Assembly: GCF_900156815.1 (NCBI RefSeq)
Contig: NZ_FTOT01000001.1
Span: forward strand, 1-64,000
Length of the DNA: 64,000 nt
Reading direction: 5' to 3'
Source of the DNA: Gemmobacter megaterium
Lineage (GTDB): Bacteria; Pseudomonadota; Alphaproteobacteria; Rhodobacterales; Rhodobacteraceae
Shown one piece after another: positions 56,575-64,000 of this stretch (positions are counted from its first letter, which is position 1; each line of letters starts with the position of its first letter). A program made the translations under genes and the position numbers. The notes below the pieces were generated by a model. That model saw only the letters and a list, made by a program, of their open reading frames with translations, had not been told where the DNA came from and made no database searches.

Positions 56575-57351
56575 ATGAGCCTAGATCGCCCCATTCATGC
56601 CGACCCCGACATGCCCGTCGCCTTGCGCGCGGCGCTGGAGGCGGCGCTGCGGCATCCGCCGCAGCGCGTGCAGCGGGTGGCTGCGGGGGGGCGGGCGGTG
56701 TGGCTCAAGCAGGCAGAGCAGCTTTCGCTGCGCTGGCGGCTGCAAAAGGGCGATACGCGCCGCGCATTCGAGGCCGACCGCGAGGGGTTGCACGACCTGG
56801 CCGCGCTTGGCCTGCCGGTGGCGCATGTCGTGGCCGAGGGGCCGGATTTCTTTGCCACTGCCGAAGTCGGCCATTCCATTGCGCATCTGTTGCGCAATGC
56901 CGAATTTGCCGGTCCGGATCGGATTGCGGCCTGCCGTGCCGCCGGGGCTGCGCTGGCCGCGTTGCACCGGGCGGGGGTGGCGCATGGCCGCCCGTCGATC
57001 CGCGACATCTGCTGGGATGGTCAGATGGCGCGGTTCATCGACCTGGAACGGTACCGCAAGGGGCGGGCGGGTGAGGGGCAGATGGCGCTGGATGTGCTGA
57101 TCCTGGTGCATTCGATGTTCGCCATCACCCGTGGCCCGGCGGCCGAGATCGACGCGGCCTGGGCGGCATGGCGCGGCGCGGCGCCCGAGGGGCTGTTGCA
57201 CGCGGTTCGCGCGCGCGCGCGGCGGGCGCGCTGGCTGGGCGTGCTGGCCAGGCTGGGGCTGCGGCTGCGCCCGGCATTGCGCGAGTTGCGCGCGGTGCCG
57301 CTGACGCTGGACCATGTGGCGGCGCAGGGCTGCGACACGACGGCGCCATGA
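56575..57351 (+). CDS. Kdo/WaaP-type lipopolysaccharide kinase-like protein
   Basis: The 258-residue protein has a protein-kinase-like fold: a basic N-lobe (LKQAEQLSLRWRLQKGD, ATP-binding Lys probable), and a catalytic HGRPSIRDICWDGQMARFIDLERYRKG corresponding to the HGD...N...DFE of LPS heptose/Kdo kinases. The canonical Asp of HGD is replaced by Arg here, so activity is uncertain; Asp in FIDLE remains. It precedes the AlkB-like gene by 49 bases on the same strand. Confidence 0.72.
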   Translation: MSLDRPIHADPDMPVALRAALEAALRHPPQRVQRVAAGGRAVWLKQAEQLSLRWRLQKGDTRRAFEADREGLHDLAALGLPVAHVVAEGPDFFATAEVGHSIAHLLRNAEFAGPDRIAACRAAGAALAALHRAGVAHGRPSIRDICWDGQMARFIDLERYRKGRAGEGQMALDVLILVHSMFAITRGPAAEIDAAWAAWRGAAPEGLLHAVRARARRARWLGVLARLGLRLRPALRELRAVPLTLDHVAAQGCDTTAP

Positions 57352-57400
57352 TTCCGGCGCCTTCCCGTGGCAGGCTGCGGCGGGCAAGGGGAATCGACGG

Positions 57401-58498
57401 ATGATGGGGCAGGACAGGCTTGCAGCTCTGGGTGCGGTGATGCGGGGCCGCGATGCGGCGTCGCGCGCGATGCGCGACTTTGCCATCGTGACACTGGCCC
57501 CTGCCGGTTTGCTGGTGGCGGGGGTCGTGCTGGGGGGCTGGGTTGCGGTGTTGGCCCTGATCTTCATCAGCCCGATCGTCTGGGCGCTGGACCGTTCTGC
57601 CGCGCGCGCAGCGCCCCATGTGCCGGGGGCGGACGAATTTCCGGCGGCTGATGGCTTGTCGGTGGTGCTGGCGCTGATGCATCTGGTGTTGCTGCCCTTC
57701 ATGGTCTGGGCGCTGGCGGGGGGGGTGGTGCTGTCCACCGGGGCGTGGCTGGCCTTGTTCGCAGGCTTCGGGTTGTGGATAGGGCAGGTGTCCAATTCCA
57801 ATGCGCACGAGCTGATCCACCGTCAGGACCGCGGGTTGCGGGCCCTGGGCGTGGCGGTCTATGCCTCGGTCGGGTATGGCCACCATGCCTCGGCGCATCG
57901 GCTGGTGCATCACCGCCATGTGGCGACCGGGGACGATCCGAACACCGCGCTGCGCGGCGAGCATGTCTATGCCTTCATGCGGCGGGCCTGGCCTGCGGAA
58001 TTTGTCGCCGGGTGGCAGATGGAGACCGTGTTGCGCACGCGCGCGCGGCGGCGGGGGCTGCATCCGTATGCGGTGTATCTGGGGGCAGTGGTGCTGGCGA
58101 TGGGGCTGGCGGTGGGGCTGGGCGGCGCTGCGGGCCTGTTCATCTGGGCCGGGCTGGCGATCTGGGCGCAGATGCAGCTTTTGCTGTCGGATTATGTCCA
58201 GCATTACGGGCTGTTGCGCGCGCGCCTGCCGGGAGGCAAGCCCGAACCTGTCGGGCCGCAGCACAGTTGGGATGCACCGCATTGGGCCTCTTCGGCCCTG
58301 ATGCTGAATGCGCCGCGCCATGCCGATCACCATGCCCATCCGGGCCGTGCCTATCCTGCGCTGGATCTGCCGGACGGCGGATTGCGGCTGCCGTACAGCC
58401 TGCCGGTGATGGCCGCGCTGGCACTGGTGCCGCCGGTATGGTTCCGGGTGATGGATCGCCGCCTGCCGCCCGAGCCGCCGCCGTCGTTCAGGTTGTGA
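57401..58498 (+). CDS. AlkB-like membrane di-iron alkane/fatty-acid hydroxylase
   Basis: The 365-residue protein has six membrane helices and the histidine clusters of the integral-membrane hydroxylase/desaturase superfamily: HELIH (NSNAHELIHRQD), HRLVHHRHV (HxxxHH), and HADHHAHPGR (HxxHH), plus DYVQHYGLLR in place of the NYIEHYG of classic AlkB. The fold would bind two irons and hydroxylate a terminal carbon or desaturate a chain. No rubredoxin or rubredoxin reductase is nearby. Substrate unknown. Two tandem ATGs start it; 57401 is used. Confidence 0.88.
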   Translation: MMGQDRLAALGAVMRGRDAASRAMRDFAIVTLAPAGLLVAGVVLGGWVAVLALIFISPIVWALDRSAARAAPHVPGADEFPAADGLSVVLALMHLVLLPFMVWALAGGVVLSTGAWLALFAGFGLWIGQVSNSNAHELIHRQDRGLRALGVAVYASVGYGHHASAHRLVHHRHVATGDDPNTALRGEHVYAFMRRAWPAEFVAGWQMETVLRTRARRRGLHPYAVYLGAVVLAMGLAVGLGGAAGLFIWAGLAIWAQMQLLLSDYVQHYGLLRARLPGGKPEPVGPQHSWDAPHWASSALMLNAPRHADHHAHPGRAYPALDLPDGGLRLPYSLPVMAALALVPPVWFRVMDRRLPPEPPPSFRL

Positions 58499-58962: not shown

Positions 58963-61053
58963 TCAGCCTGTCAGATTGGCATCCTTGAGCAACCGGCCAT
59001 GGCGGCGCACCTCGGCCAGAACGGCGCCATAGGTGGTCAGCCCGCGCGCCTGAAGCATGGGCAGCAGCCGCAGAAAGGCTTCGGCCGTGGCCATGGTATC
59101 GCCAATGGCGGTATGGCGCGCTTCCTCGGGGATGGTGATGCCAAGCCGATGGGTCAGCGCATCCAGCGAATGCACCTCGGACTGGCCCCAGATCACTGCC
59201 GACAGCAGCACCGTATCGAGGATCGGATTGTCAAAGCGCAGGCCAAGCTCTGTCTCGCGCCGCCGCAGAAAGGTCATGTCGAAGGGCGCGTTATGGGCCA
59301 CCAGCACCGATCCGGCGGCAAAGCGGTGAAAGCGCGGCAGAACCTCGGTCACGCCGTCGGCGCTGGCGACCATGGCATCGGTGATGCCGTGCACATCGGT
59401 CGATCCTGCCGGGATGGGCCGGCCGGGGTTCACCAGCGTATCGAACACCTCGCCTTCAAGCCGTCGGCCATTCACCAGCCGCACGGCGGCGATCTGGACA
59501 ATCTCGTCCCCCTGTTGGGGCAGCAGGCCGGTGGTCTCGGTATCGAAGACCACATAGGTCAGTTGCTCCAGCGGCATGTCCGCCACCGGGGCAGAGCGTT
59601 CGCGCGACAGAAGGTCAAAGTCGTAGACGACGGCGCGCGCCACCGGGGCAGGGCGCCGCCCCGCGCGCCGGGCCTGACGGATCGGCAGGCACAGGCGCGG
59701 CTGGCCGGTCGTGCCTTCGGGCCAGCATTCGGTCGCATGGGTCTGCAACACCGCGCGGCCCGACAGATCGGCAAGGCCGGGTTCCAGCGGGCCTTCCAGC
59801 CACTGGTCCAGCGTGCCGACCGGCAGCGCAGGGCCGTCCCATCCCAGCAGGATCAGCGCGCCGGGGCCGTCTTCGGCGATGTCCAGCCGCAGGGTGGTGG
59901 TTCCGGCATGGGCCGCCACGCGCCGGGCCAGTTCGGCCACCAGAACGACCATTTCAAACCCGTTGCAGCGCAACAGCAATTCGGCAGCCTGTCCGATGAC
60001 GCTCAGCCCTGCGCCTTCCAGCCGGGCGCGCAGGCTGTCCAGCAGGTCAGAGGCGCGGGTCATCGACAACAGCGCCCAGTCGCTGCGGCCCTCGTCATAG
60101 CGGGCGCCCAGTTCGGTGATGGCGCGGGTCAGTTGCGCCACCTCGGCCCGCATGGCCCGGTCCAGCCGTCCGCCGGGGTCGGCGCCGCTGTCTTCGGCCA
60201 GCACACCCATCACGGTTTGCAGGTTGGCGGCGGGTCGGCGCACGCGGTCGAACACTTCGGCCAGCAGGGCCTCGCGCTTGGCATGGGCTGCAAGGTCGGC
60301 GGTCACGTCGCGCAGCGTGATCACATAGCCGGGCGCCATCTGCTCGGGGCTGTGCAGCAGGCGCATCCGCGCGGCCAGCAAACGCGGCATGGGGCCGGTG
60401 GTGGCGCACAGCAGGTCGGACGCCGCCTCGGCATCGCCGGTATCGCGCAGCCGGTCATAGGCGTGGCGCACCGGCCCGTCGCGCAGATAGTCGAACAGGC
60501 TGCGGTCCAGGCCCGGCGCGCCGGTGGCGCCCCCCAGCAGATCCTGCGCAAGCCCGTTGTAGAACACGAGCTGATGCCCCGCGGAACACAACAGCACCCC
60601 GGCAGGCACATCGGACAGCAGCGTTTCCAGCCGGGCCTTTTCCCCGGCCAGCCGGGTGGTTTCCCGCGCCACCGATTCCGCCAGTGCATTGCGGGTTTCC
60701 GACAGTTTCGTCAGGGCCGCGCCCACCGCCGGGGCCAGATCGCCCAGATAGCGCGCGGTCTGCCGGTCCAGATCGCTCCCCGCATCGGCATGAGACCGGC
60801 TGCGGATGCTGCCCGCCAGCCGTTCGATGGCGCGCGCGACATGCAGATCGAACAACAGCCAGACCCAGACCACGATCCCGACGAGCACGAATCCGGCAAC
60901 AACGCCGCCCTGAACAAAGGCGTCGAGCGTGTCCGGGCTGCCAAGGCGGCGATAGCCCAGCCACAACCCCGCAACCAGCGCCGCCACCCCCCCGAATGCC
61001 AGCACGGCAAAGAACAGGAAGATGCGCAGCCGCAGGCTGAGGCGGTCAAGCAT
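58963..61053 (-). CDS. Membrane PAS/kinase-like sensor fused to a DnaQ-type DEDDh exonuclease
   Basis: This 696-residue fusion has two membrane helices (about 10-32 and 48-68), a HAMP-like/coiled-coil linker, a PAS domain (about 130-250), a histidine-kinase-like region (about 255-460), and a C-terminal 3'-5' exonuclease (about 497-690) with all DEDDh residues: D504-T-E506, D592 (HNAPFD), H647 and D652 (HTAIGD). The kinase-like part has RVRRPAANLQTVMGVL where SHELRTPL should be; the phospho-His is missing and the ATPase motifs are not recognisable, so it probably senses or scaffolds rather than autophosphorylates. Its start overlaps the receiver gene by 8 bases. Confidence 0.9.
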   Translation of the reverse strand: MLDRLSLRLRIFLFFAVLAFGGVAALVAGLWLGYRRLGSPDTLDAFVQGGVVAGFVLVGIVVWVWLLFDLHVARAIERLAGSIRSRSHADAGSDLDRQTARYLGDLAPAVGAALTKLSETRNALAESVARETTRLAGEKARLETLLSDVPAGVLLCSAGHQLVFYNGLAQDLLGGATGAPGLDRSLFDYLRDGPVRHAYDRLRDTGDAEAASDLLCATTGPMPRLLAARMRLLHSPEQMAPGYVITLRDVTADLAAHAKREALLAEVFDRVRRPAANLQTVMGVLAEDSGADPGGRLDRAMRAEVAQLTRAITELGARYDEGRSDWALLSMTRASDLLDSLRARLEGAGLSVIGQAAELLLRCNGFEMVVLVAELARRVAAHAGTTTLRLDIAEDGPGALILLGWDGPALPVGTLDQWLEGPLEPGLADLSGRAVLQTHATECWPEGTTGQPRLCLPIRQARRAGRRPAPVARAVVYDFDLLSRERSAPVADMPLEQLTYVVFDTETTGLLPQQGDEIVQIAAVRLVNGRRLEGEVFDTLVNPGRPIPAGSTDVHGITDAMVASADGVTEVLPRFHRFAAGSVLVAHNAPFDMTFLRRRETELGLRFDNPILDTVLLSAVIWGQSEVHSLDALTHRLGITIPEEARHTAIGDTMATAEAFLRLLPMLQARGLTTYGAVLAEVRRHGRLLKDANLTG

Positions 61054-61471
61054 CGTCGACCCCCCCGCCTTGCGCGGCCGTCGCCCCCACCCCCGTCAGC
61101 AGGCGCCGCACCTCCTCGCGCAGTTCCTTGAGTTCGAAGGGTTTCGAGATGAAGCCATCGGCGCCCAGTGCAAGACCCTTGCGCCGTTCGATGGCCGAGC
61201 CGCGCGCGGTCATCATCAGGATCTTGACATCGGCCAGCGCCGGGTCCAGCCGCACGCCCTGACAGATCTCGTATCCCGAGACTTCCGGCAGCATCACATC
61301 CAGCAGAACCAGATCGGGCCGGGTGCCACGGATCCGGGCCATCGCCTCGCCGCCATTGGCCACGCGATCATGTTCGTAGCCTTCGCGCGTCAGCAGATAA
61401 TCCAGGGCGATGGCGATGTTGTCCTCGTCCTCGACCACCAGAATGCGTTTCTTCCCTCCCTCAGCGCCCAT
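61046..61471 (-). CDS. Single-domain response regulator (receiver only)
   Basis: The 141-residue CheY-like protein has the acidic pocket VVEDED, phospho-accepting Asp 58 in LLDVMLPE, the Thr of MMTARGS and Lys 110 in ISKPFE. There is no output domain; the short Ala/Gly tail is not a DNA-binding domain. Its gene sits between the small membrane protein and the sensor-exonuclease, overlapping the latter, so the two probably act together. Confidence 0.93.
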   Translation of the reverse strand: MGAEGGKKRILVVEDEDNIAIALDYLLTREGYEHDRVANGGEAMARIRGTRPDLVLLDVMLPEVSGYEICQGVRLDPALADVKILMMTARGSAIERRKGLALGADGFISKPFELKELREEVRRLLTGVGATAAQGGGVDDA

Positions 61472-61473
61472 GG

Positions 61474-61995
61474 CTATCCTCCGTGGCAGGCCGCTGCCAG
61501 AACCGGATCGTCGGCGGCAAGCGGCACCCAGGTGCCCCCCGCCAACACGCCGGTGTCTGAAAATGTCACCCCTTCGGTCAGATCGACCCGGCGCGCGTTG
61601 GCGCAGTCGAACATGACCAGGATTTCCCTGTCCTTTTGCCAGCGGGCAAAGCGCCAGACCGGCGCCAGCACCAGATCGGGCGCGCCGGGGTTGCGCATCG
61701 CCTTGCGGGTATCGACCAGCCAGGCCTCTGTGACCAGGGGGGCCGCATAGGTCCAGGGACGCAGGGGCGAGGTGCCCTTGCCGGTCTGTGCCAGCACCAC
61801 GCCGGGCGGGATCCCGGCTTGCAGGCGCGGAAACCAGCTATATTCCGACCAGATCGAAGCGGTCAGCATTCCGACGCCGGCCAAAGCCGGCACCAGCCAT
61901 TTGGGCGCGCGCCGCGCTGTCAGCTTGCGCAGCATGAGCCCGATGCCCGCGCCCGCGATCCCCGCAATCAATATGGCCAGAAATTCAAACGTCAT
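61474..61995 (-). CDS. Small membrane protein of the symporter-exonuclease operon
   Basis: The 173-residue protein has two N-terminal membrane helices (about 4-22 and 34-50) and a soluble domain of about 120 residues, probably periplasmic, with conserved-looking WTYAAPLVTEAWLVDTRKAMRNPGAPDLVLAP and MFDCANARRVDLTEG. No known family recognised. It is 2 bases from the receiver gene and 12 from the DUF294 gene, so it is co-transcribed and a likely part of the same signalling unit. Confidence 0.82.
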   Translation of the reverse strand: MTFEFLAILIAGIAGAGIGLMLRKLTARRAPKWLVPALAGVGMLTASIWSEYSWFPRLQAGIPPGVVLAQTGKGTSPLRPWTYAAPLVTEAWLVDTRKAMRNPGAPDLVLAPVWRFARWQKDREILVMFDCANARRVDLTEGVTFSDTGVLAGGTWVPLAADDPVLAAACHGG

Positions 61996-62007
61996 GATCG
62001 GGGCCCC

Positions 62008-63834
62008 CTAGCCCGGAGCGCCCCGGCTGGATGCCGAGGATTGCATGGTGCGCACGACGACAAAGGCATCGCGCAGATGGCTGCGTTCGAAATCGGACAG
62101 ATCGGCCGGGGCAAGGAAGTTGTCGGGCTTGCGCCGCATCTGCACCAGCGTCGCCTGATTGCGCAGGCGGGTATCGGCGATAAGGTCATAGGCCTCGATC
62201 AGGTCGCGCGCGCCCGAGACCGAGATCACCCCCGCCTCTTCGGCGGCCAGCAGGCGGGCGCGGGTGTTGACAGCCGTCAACTTTCCGCGCAGCGCATAGA
62301 CGCGGCCCAGATCGACCACCGGGATCACGCCGTTCAGCTTCATGTCGATATGGTTGCGATGTTCGCCCGAGCGGATGGTGGCAAAACCGCGCAACAGCCC
62401 CAGCGGTGGCTGGTGTTTCAGACTGTTGGAAATCATGTGGGCCACGAAGATGGAATTCTTCGCCGCCATGTCCAGCGTTTCGGCCTGAAGGTTGGAAAAC
62501 AGCGATACCTGCCCCCCGATGGGCCGCAGGTCGAACATGACAGAGGCCAGCATCTGCGCCATCGGGTCGGGTTTGGCCACCCAGCCGGCAAAGTAGTCGC
62601 GCCACACGCTCACCGGCTGGCACCAGCGCGGATTGGTCGCCATCATGTCGCCGGGGCAGTAATAATACCCTGCGGCGTTCAGCCCGTCCGATACGATGCG
62701 GGCCAGACGCTGGAAATAGGCCATGTCGCCAGGCGCCATGCCATCGTCGATCAGCAGGCAGTTGTCCTGGTCGGACACGCCGGTCTGTTCCTGCCGCCCT
62801 TGCGATCCGCAGGCCAGCCACAGATAGGGCACCGGGGGCGGGCCAAGTTCGGCCTCGGCCATGGCCAGCAGGCGGCGGGTGACGGCATCGGCAATATCGG
62901 TGATCAGCCGGGTCACGACCTCGTGCGCGTTATGGGCCCCGACCAGTTGCATCAGCAGTTGCGGAATGCGGGCGGTGGTGGCGGCCATGTCGGCCACGCT
63001 GTCGGCGGTGGCCACATCGCGCACCAGAACGGCGGCACTGACGGCCTGAAAACGTGTCAGGTCGGTCTGTGTGACCATGCCGACCAGCGTGCCGTCGCGC
63101 ACCACCGGAAGATGCCCGATGCGGCGTTCCAGCATAAGATGCAGCACATCCGACCCCAGCGCCTCGGGCGGCAGCGACAGCGGCGCAGGGGTCATCACGG
63201 CATGAACCGGGGTCGCGGGATCGCGCCCTTCGGCGACCACCTTGTTGGTCATGTCGCGCGTGGTCAGCAGCCCGACGAAGCGCCCCTGATCGACGACGCC
63301 CAGGCTGGAGACATGTTCGTCGCGCATGATCCGCGCCGCGGCAAAGACCGTGGTATCGGGCGCGCAGATCACCGGCTTGCGGGCCATCAGATCGGCCACC
63401 TTGCGGGTTGCCAGATCGGGCCCGCGCGTTTCCATCGCGCGGCCGCGGTTGAAGAACCGCTCAAAGGCCGGGCGGGTGGCGATCAGGCGGCGGAAGTCAT
63501 CGGTCGGCAGCATCAGCACAACCGAGGCTTCGGCTGCCTGTGCCGTGGTCAGCGCCAGCCCGTCGCGCATCAATCCGCGTTCGCCGAACGTATTGCGCGG
63601 CCCCAGCAACGACACGAGCGTGCCCGAGTCGTCCACCACCTCGATGGCCCCGGATTTCACCAGATACAGCCCCTCCAGCGGGGTGCCGGCGGTATAGACA
63701 CGCTGGCCTGCGGCCAGTTCCCTGCGGCCGAAGGAACCGGCGACACGCGCCAGTTCGTCCTGCGGCAGGGTATCATAGGGGTGCACCGTTTCCAGAAAGG
63801 CGGCGATGCGGGCTTTGGCGGTCTGGTCGGTCAT
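62008..63834 (-). CDS. cNMP-binding / CBS-pair / DUF294 nucleotidyltransferase-like protein
   Basis: The 608-residue soluble protein has, in order, a cyclic-nucleotide-binding (Crp-like) domain (about 10-135), two CBS domains (about 150-275), a GlnD-like nucleotidyltransferase domain with GSQGRQEQTGVSDQDN (about 343-358) and a helical DUF294 substrate-binding domain (about 450-600). The G-S, Arg, Glu and D-x-D pattern of active nucleotidyltransferases is kept. GlnD-type enzymes uridylylate proteins, so this may modify a partner in the operon in response to cNMP and adenylates. A GGGAGGAG ribosome-binding site fixes the start. Confidence 0.92.
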   Translation of the reverse strand: MTDQTAKARIAAFLETVHPYDTLPQDELARVAGSFGRRELAAGQRVYTAGTPLEGLYLVKSGAIEVVDDSGTLVSLLGPRNTFGERGLMRDGLALTTAQAAEASVVLMLPTDDFRRLIATRPAFERFFNRGRAMETRGPDLATRKVADLMARKPVICAPDTTVFAAARIMRDEHVSSLGVVDQGRFVGLLTTRDMTNKVVAEGRDPATPVHAVMTPAPLSLPPEALGSDVLHLMLERRIGHLPVVRDGTLVGMVTQTDLTRFQAVSAAVLVRDVATADSVADMAATTARIPQLLMQLVGAHNAHEVVTRLITDIADAVTRRLLAMAEAELGPPPVPYLWLACGSQGRQEQTGVSDQDNCLLIDDGMAPGDMAYFQRLARIVSDGLNAAGYYYCPGDMMATNPRWCQPVSVWRDYFAGWVAKPDPMAQMLASVMFDLRPIGGQVSLFSNLQAETLDMAAKNSIFVAHMISNSLKHQPPLGLLRGFATIRSGEHRNHIDMKLNGVIPVVDLGRVYALRGKLTAVNTRARLLAAEEAGVISVSGARDLIEAYDLIADTRLRNQATLVQMRRKPDNFLAPADLSDFERSHLRDAFVVVRTMQSSASSRGAPG

Positions 63835-63921
63835 CGCTGCTCCTCCCTTTGGATGCGCGCCGGGTTTGCCCCGGTCTGGCTGGGGATGCGGGGGCGGTGT
63901 GAGCCGTCCCCGCACAGGATG

Positions 63922-64000
63922 TCAGTGGGCCTGCGCCTTGCCTGCGCCTTTCGGCACGCGGATCGATTCCACCAGATCGATCACATGGGCCGGAGGAGCC
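63922..64000 (-). CDS. Sodium:solute symporter, C-terminal end (ActP-like; cut by window edge)
   Basis: Only the last 25 codons are present: APPAHVIDLVESIRVPKGAGKAQAH then TGA. This tail matches the cytoplasmic end of SSS-family cation/acetate-type symporters. The gene lies upstream in the minus-strand operon that continues with the DUF294 gene after 87 bases. The substrate cannot be judged from this fragment. Confidence 0.7.
   Translation of the reverse strand, partial: APPAHVIDLVESIRVPKGAGKAQAH

Follow-up and report, generated by a model that had tools for sequence, protein, structure and literature searches.

Why should a 3'-5' exonuclease be encoded beside a carboxylate symporter, and what would control it there? 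The question is raised by a gene cluster of Gemmobacter megaterium at the end of the window analysed here, the whole 64,000-nucleotide stretch at positions 1 to 64,000 of the 930-kb contig NZ_FTOT01000001.1. Coordinates are window positions, and those beyond 64,000 carry the prefix C27 for the same contig. A first-pass annotation had seen five minus-strand genes in this region, spaced by 87, 12, 2 and -8 bases. A check of the open reading frames (ORFs) agrees with strand and spacings, and Pfam with the calls of cNMP/CBS/DUF294, receiver and exonuclease domains. The five genes are:

63922..64000, minus strand: 3' end of the symporter large subunit gene (VC_2705 family, TIGR03648; whole gene C27:63922-65739)
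62008..63834, minus strand: 608-amino-acid (aa) protein with cNMP, two CBS, DUF294 and DUF294_C domains (Pfam), a conserved neighbour of symporter and exonuclease
61474..61995, minus strand: TM173, a 173-aa membrane protein (ORF and AlphaFold model)
61046..61471, minus strand: receiver-only response regulator, 141 aa (Pfam Response_reg)
58963..61053, minus strand: 696-aa protein with transmembrane (TM) region, PAS domain, predicted pseudo-histidine kinase and DEDDh exonuclease (Pfam, AlphaFold model, Foldseek, hhalign)

The answer begins with the last of these. It had been described as a membrane sensor carrying an exonuclease, and membrane region and exonuclease both stand; what had been missed is a degenerate histidine kinase. 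Pfam finds PAS and RNase_T in the protein, and the segment between them gives no significant match. In the AlphaFold model (predicted local distance difference test, pLDDT, 85) this segment forms two long helices (residues 251-287 and 296-326), and after them comes an alpha/beta fold like that of a CA domain. Foldseek with the model retrieves WalK (E 1.5e-15), VicK (1.7e-13) and DivL (3.7e-8), profile-profile alignment (hhalign) to true kinases gives a probability of 96.6 and E 5e-10, and the HisKA profile matches relatives of the segment weakly. VIA-align of the fusion model gave exonuclease matches only, which leaves Foldseek and hhalign as the support for the kinase part. The protein can be divided as follows:

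60304..61053, minus strand: residues 1-250, membrane region at the N terminus with signalling helix and PAS domain (model; the PAS_4 match scores under the curated cut-off)
60076..60303, minus strand: DHp-like helical hairpin, residues 251-326 (model helices, weak HisKA match in relatives, hhalign)
60249-60247, minus strand: codon of D269, at the phospho-His position (hhalign to a true kinase)
59659..60066, minus strand: degenerate ATPase-like (CA) domain, residues 330-465 (model topology, hhalign E 5e-10, Foldseek)
59074..59553, minus strand: DEDDh 3'-5' exonuclease domain, RNase_T, residues 501-660 (Pfam 1.8e-36)

In the hhalign alignment D269 falls on the phospho-His and the N and G boxes of the CA domain are lost. 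At the 64 loci with an adjacent receiver the phospho-His position holds D in 39, E in 19, A in 4, S in 1 and T in 1, and never H, and the HATPase_c profile gives no match. An active kinase would need the phospho-acceptor His and the N and G boxes; what is kept instead is the DHp and CA fold together with a co-occurring single-domain receiver with an intact phospho-Asp, as in DivL. Judged by alignment and model, the "membrane sensor" is a pseudo-histidine kinase fused to a DEDDh exonuclease.

What would a dead kinase do next to a receiver? The receivers themselves are intact, with phospho-Asp and Lys kept in 64/64 adjacent copies. Of 124 dereplicated clusters, 53 have receiver and DHp helix together and 68 have neither; three hold the helix only and none the receiver only (Fisher p 7e-32, without correction for relatedness). 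On the DUF294 tree each trait changes seven times, and of the independent pairs on supported branches four differ in the same direction, none in the opposite direction and one not at all (sign test p 0.125). Within the family, loss of the receiver goes along with a lost or eroded kinase-like segment. At six loci (L078, L079, L080, L105, L163 and L179) the DHp helix is eroded, the CA remnant kept and the receiver gone, which is how loss of a docking partner should look in sequence. Because the receiver is present only where the DHp helix is kept, and its phospho-Asp is never lost, the most likely reading is that the dead kinase offers it a docking site on the DHp helices, in the way that DivL receives DivK~P, and that the receiver would thereby steer the nuclease. 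At a locus of another class (L251, genome G414), genes for a pseudo-kinase-exonuclease and a receiver adjoin that of a truncated SLC5 protein, divergent from the DUF294 gene, so this branch is not limited to Alphaproteobacteria. A literature search, largely outside subscription journals, found no report of the receiver/pseudo-kinase/exonuclease branch, and nothing on a "pseudo-histidine kinase" with an exonuclease or on DUF4212, a domain met below; what it found on DUF294 alone was mostly unrelated.

The kinase that phosphorylates such a receiver would have to lie elsewhere. Eight alphaproteobacterial loci outside the main cluster have a related receiver (L038-L042, L045, L047 and L116), and all eight encode a histidine kinase of 897-971 aa fused to an SLC5 domain in its neighbourhood; at L116, which belongs to the same family, small overlaps of a few bases join the genes for kinase, receiver and pseudo-kinase-exonuclease. 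These kinases resemble the sensors CrbS and RpuS. The closest one in the window's genome (C27:137904-140597; L269:1402-4098) is CrbS/RpuS-like with an intact kinase and lies about 75 kb from the cluster. A homologue is found in 134 of 150 family genomes, cluster present or not, so the presence of such a kinase is uninformative as a correlate of the receiver, and the one at C27:137904-140597 is not tied specifically to the window's receiver; that it acts on this receiver is a guess.

The exonuclease domain itself appears fully equipped. Compared with E. coli Pol III epsilon it scores a VIA Z of 24, its closest folds being Pol III epsilon, ExoX and RNase T, and the five catalytic residues (D, E, D, H, D) are kept in 151-152 of 153 relatives, the remainder being gaps. 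The alphaproteobacterial fusions have Asp at the second catalytic Asp position in all cases. In the wider Pseudomonadota (L227-L266), where the standalone partner exonucleases are about 230 aa long, Glu occupies that position in 21 of 36 aligned standalone proteins, with a motif like HYRRIERDFL; the substrate of these Glu-type enzymes may differ from ordinary nucleic acid. At L049:7274-8782 an exonuclease domain ends a multi-pass EamA-like membrane protein, with a DUF294 gene adjoining, which may be a true fusion or an ORF artefact.

A clue to what the exonuclease acts on comes from its partner. The DUF294 protein (Pfam: cNMP, two CBS, DUF294, DUF294_C) is 83% identical to its counterpart in a Gemmobacter genome, and its gene starts at the ATG at 63834, preceded by a GGAGGAG ribosome-binding site, a longer GTG ORF from 63915 being less likely. 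One feature stands out:

62764..62808, minus strand: GSX10DXD nucleotidyltransferase signature, residues 343-357, GSQGRQEQTGVSDQD (meaning of the motif from PMC7641770)

This motif is kept in 157/157 related DUF294 proteins from the loci that were fetched, as well as in 42/42 from the wider phylum, and the DUF294 profile PF03445 matches residues 608-696 of the adenylyltransferase GlnE (E 2e-8). Motif and kinship are both those expected of a protein adenylyltransferase, and DUF294_C has been grouped with the C-terminal domains of GlnD and GlnE (PMC3710099). The same motif is found in MntA, by which a HepT tyrosine receives three AMPs; snake venom phosphodiesterase removes them, and the cellular remover was not identified (PMC7641770).

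The pairing with the exonuclease extends well beyond the family. In a wider sample of Pseudomonadota, 40 regions picked solely for a DUF294 gene outside the family, a DEDDh-type exonuclease gene lies directly 3' of 35 of the 42 DUF294 genes on the same strand; the window's genome has no more than two RNase_T genes, which makes chance adjacency negligible. The class-level alphaproteobacterial loci were chosen by their exonuclease; in most of them a DUF294 gene lies within 650 bases of it on either strand, often convergent, and at L055:7182-9320 exonuclease, CBS pair, DUF294 and DUF294_C share one 712-aa chain. Symporter genes are near many of these pairs and not all, so the pair stands as its own module. 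With GSX10DXD, the kinship to GlnE and GlnD, an intact exonuclease and a phosphodiesterase that strips AMP from HepT, a writer/eraser pair is chemically reasonable, although we hold it with less confidence than the docking.

Which process would such a pair serve? The five genes do not make up the whole group, and the cluster runs on past the window, 5' of the symporter gene, through genes for DUF4212 (C27:65753-66010), adenylate kinase (66066-66752) and acetate-CoA ligase (66757-68796). Its full order is acs-adk-DUF4212-symporter-DUF294-TM173-[receiver]-exonuclease, the receiver being variable. The symporter is of the VC_2705 two-subunit type, with profile matches to TIGR03648 for the large and TIGR03647 for the small (DUF4212) subunit; its identification as ActP itself was dropped for this reason. 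Acetate-CoA ligase produces AMP and adenylate kinase uses it up, which would make the cluster one for carboxylate uptake, activation and AMP recycling with a regulatory tail. A promoter and terminator scan gave matches at chance level. On the 3' side of the exonuclease gene, and convergent with the cluster, lies a plus-strand ORF of 394 aa (57314-58498), whose His-rich motifs suggest a membrane protein resembling the fatty acid desaturase/alkane hydroxylase type.

TM173 has no Pfam or NCBIfam match. Its AlphaFold model (pLDDT 95) has two transmembrane helices and a beta-rich domain, with no significant match in the PDB (the top Foldseek hit, H. influenzae protein E at E 0.12, was not used). 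Among 143 sequences the Cys pair C131/C170 is near-invariant (142/143 and 138/143), and K and R abound in the inter-helix loop, with 299 basic against 13 acidic residues. For these reasons the beta-rich domain is probably periplasmic with a disulfide. We take TM173 to be a partner of the symporter, because in the non-alpha loci L230, L249, L253 and L256 its gene lies immediately after that of the symporter.

Is the grouping stable? In a sample of 150 family genomes, one per genus, the exonuclease half finds a counterpart in 66 (E <= 1e-25). The 63 related loci compared (60 from the family, 2 from the class sample and the window) retain DUF4212, symporter, DUF294, TM173 and exonuclease together in 61 cases, with adk in 57 and acs in 56, some of these being cut by contig ends. 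Most of 80 named loci share the gene order (Gemmobacter, Tabrizicola, Thioclava, Ruegeria, Phaeobacter, Paracoccus, Celeribacter, Ciceribacter, Roseibium and others), and such conservation across the family means that the grouping is not chance. The expectation that all five genes co-occur therefore holds for all except the receiver, and a constant five-gene operon was rejected on its account, since it is missing from 71 of the 124 dereplicated clusters. Rhodobacteraceae-type clusters without the receiver are also found in Rhizobiales (L143, L147, L148 and L150: Ciceribacter, an uncultured Allorhizobium and a Rhizobiales isolate); these nest inside the family on the DUF294 tree, which looks like horizontal transfer.

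Taken together, the following chain is proposed. A sensor kinase elsewhere, most plausibly CrbS-like and SLC5-fused, would phosphorylate the receiver-only protein. The receiver would then dock on the DHp helices of the membrane-bound pseudo-kinase, which would read the state of the receiver while itself unable to phosphorylate; co-evolution and the DivL precedent make this step likely. Docking, together with the PAS domain, would switch the fused DEDDh 3'-5' exonuclease. In a fourth and weaker step, the DUF294 enzyme, controlled by its cNMP and CBS (energy-state) domains, would add one or more nucleoside monophosphates (NMPs) to a protein, and the exonuclease would take them off from the free 3' end. 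The target would most likely be the symporter complex (large subunit, DUF4212 and TM173) or an acetate-activation protein; for this writing and erasing on a protein our confidence is tentative. While the parts, the intact or lost active sites and the gene linkage are read directly from the DNA, the chain, as the regulatory end of a cluster for acetate/carboxylate uptake and activation, is the best explanation at hand, held with slightly less than even confidence. Its most specific form, in which a protein of transport or acetate activation bears a reversible (oligo)nucleotidyl mark with its own writer and eraser, and Rhodobacterales have a phospho-receiver that switches the eraser through a dead kinase, is doubtful as a complete statement.

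Several observations weigh against this proposal. The usual substrates of DEDDh exonucleases are DNA or RNA, and we know of no DEDDh de-AMPylase. Many wider-Pseudomonadota partner exonucleases carry Glu at the second catalytic Asp. With just four well-supported independent pairs behind the link between receiver and DHp helix, the test (p 0.125) has too little power, and a divergent DHp helix without a receiver occurs at three Ciceribacter-type loci. About half of the family clusters lack both receiver and kinase segment and work without them, so this branch is dispensable. The SLC5-kinase is not specifically linked to the cluster (134/150 genomes, about 75 kb away). Finally, deletion of pp_0354 or pp_0353, the P. 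putida counterparts of the pair, gave no acetate phenotype (PMC9927547).

In the alternative that fares best the exonuclease serves RNA decay: under the control of receiver and pseudo-kinase, or of the PAS domain alone, it would degrade a few uptake or central-carbon mRNAs at the membrane, and the DUF294 protein would regulate the exonuclease or add RNA tails. The fold is indeed closest to nucleic-acid exonucleases, with its catalytic residues intact, and mRNA decay was proposed for PP_0353 after its pyruvate phenotype (PMC9927547). However, the partner nucleotidyltransferase groups with GlnE and GlnD and not with RNA-tailing enzymes (PMC3710099), and an RNA-binding domain was not found in the analysis; we regard RNA decay as possible though on the unlikely side. 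The first-pass annotation had spoken of coupling to "nucleotide or nucleic-acid turnover", which is too general: with GSX10DXD present and GlnE recognised by the DUF294 profile, control through nucleotidylation is no less likely. A second alternative treats the kinase-like segment as a mere dimerisation scaffold, the receiver being co-transcribed and having an unrelated partner of its own. It would account for the absence of both from half of the clusters, and for L045 and L047, where a related receiver lies beside an SLC5-kinase and the exonuclease lacks the kinase-like segment; yet the receiver follows the DHp helix through several losses, even where the rest of the segment is kept, and we think a scaffold improbable. 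A classical two-component system, in which an atypical but active kinase phosphorylates the adjacent receiver, would suit the intact receiver and a gene order and overlap typical of kinase-regulator pairs, but was rejected as very improbable with the phospho-His missing in 64/64, the ATP-binding N and G boxes lost and HATPase_c without a match.

The proposal of a receiver acting through a dead kinase on a nucleotide-removing enzyme matters beyond this locus. Pairs of DUF294 protein and exonuclease are very widespread among Pseudomonadota, with many marine and soil bacteria keeping them beside an acetate-type uptake system; they often lie near carboxylate symporters and form part of a known regulon, and the fused and co-evolving architectures provide a testable chain from receiver to pseudo-kinase, nuclease and nucleotidyltransferase. 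If the chain is true, nuclease control would join the outputs of two-component systems, with removal of nucleotides from a protein as the end of the signal; a further histidine kinase would have turned naturally into a receiver reader; and there would be a candidate for the enzymes by which proteins with an MNT-type modification lose their AMP.

How does this compare with known systems? The pair is already published as a CrbR/ErdR target with its mechanism unexplained: in P. putida PP_0354 is a direct ErdR target, PP_0354/PP_0353 belong to the CrbR/ErdR targets, and in P. aeruginosa the homologues are neighbours of actP and yjcH (PMC9927547, PMC8402216), with Pflu5625 as a further case (PMC5715377). 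The first-pass annotation was thus right that a DUF294/CBS protein and a DnaQ-like exonuclease accompany acetate-type symporters and CrbS/CrbR. Its remark that no exonuclease role in uptake signalling was known needs correcting, as a part in uptake physiology is already hinted at: pp_0353 and actP-I are required for normal growth of P. putida on pyruvate, on which the mutants grow poorly (PMC9927547, PMC8402216). The window shares with that module the same two families in one operon, a cNMP/CBS/DUF294 protein with a nearby RNase_T exonuclease, and the link to an acetate-type symporter (TIGR03648 with TIGR03647); PP_0353, tied to pyruvate use, has not been described with membrane, PAS or kinase-like domains, nor with a receiver branch. 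DivL of Caulobacter has a histidine kinase fold with neither kinase nor phosphatase activity, and DivK~P binds to its docking face (PMC4211667). The fusion resembles it in the lost phospho-His, the upstream PAS and the predicted role of reading a single-domain receiver, whereas DivL has Tyr at that position and controls CckA, the fusion having mostly Asp or Glu and a covalently attached exonuclease as output. With MntA/HepT and GlnE the DUF294 protein shares GSX10DXD, the Pfam overlap with GlnE and a C-terminal domain of the GlnD/GlnE/HEPN clan (PMC7641770, PMC3710099); it differs in its cNMP and CBS sensors and in having a separate DEDDh exonuclease as presumed remover. CrbS/CrbR and RpuS/RpuR are likewise SLC5-kinases with related receivers in the control of carboxylate uptake, an arrangement seen at several alphaproteobacterial loci (PMC5715377, PMC9100948). 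In contrast to CrbR and RpuR, the receiver here stands alone, has no DNA-binding domain and adjoins an exonuclease-fused pseudo-kinase.

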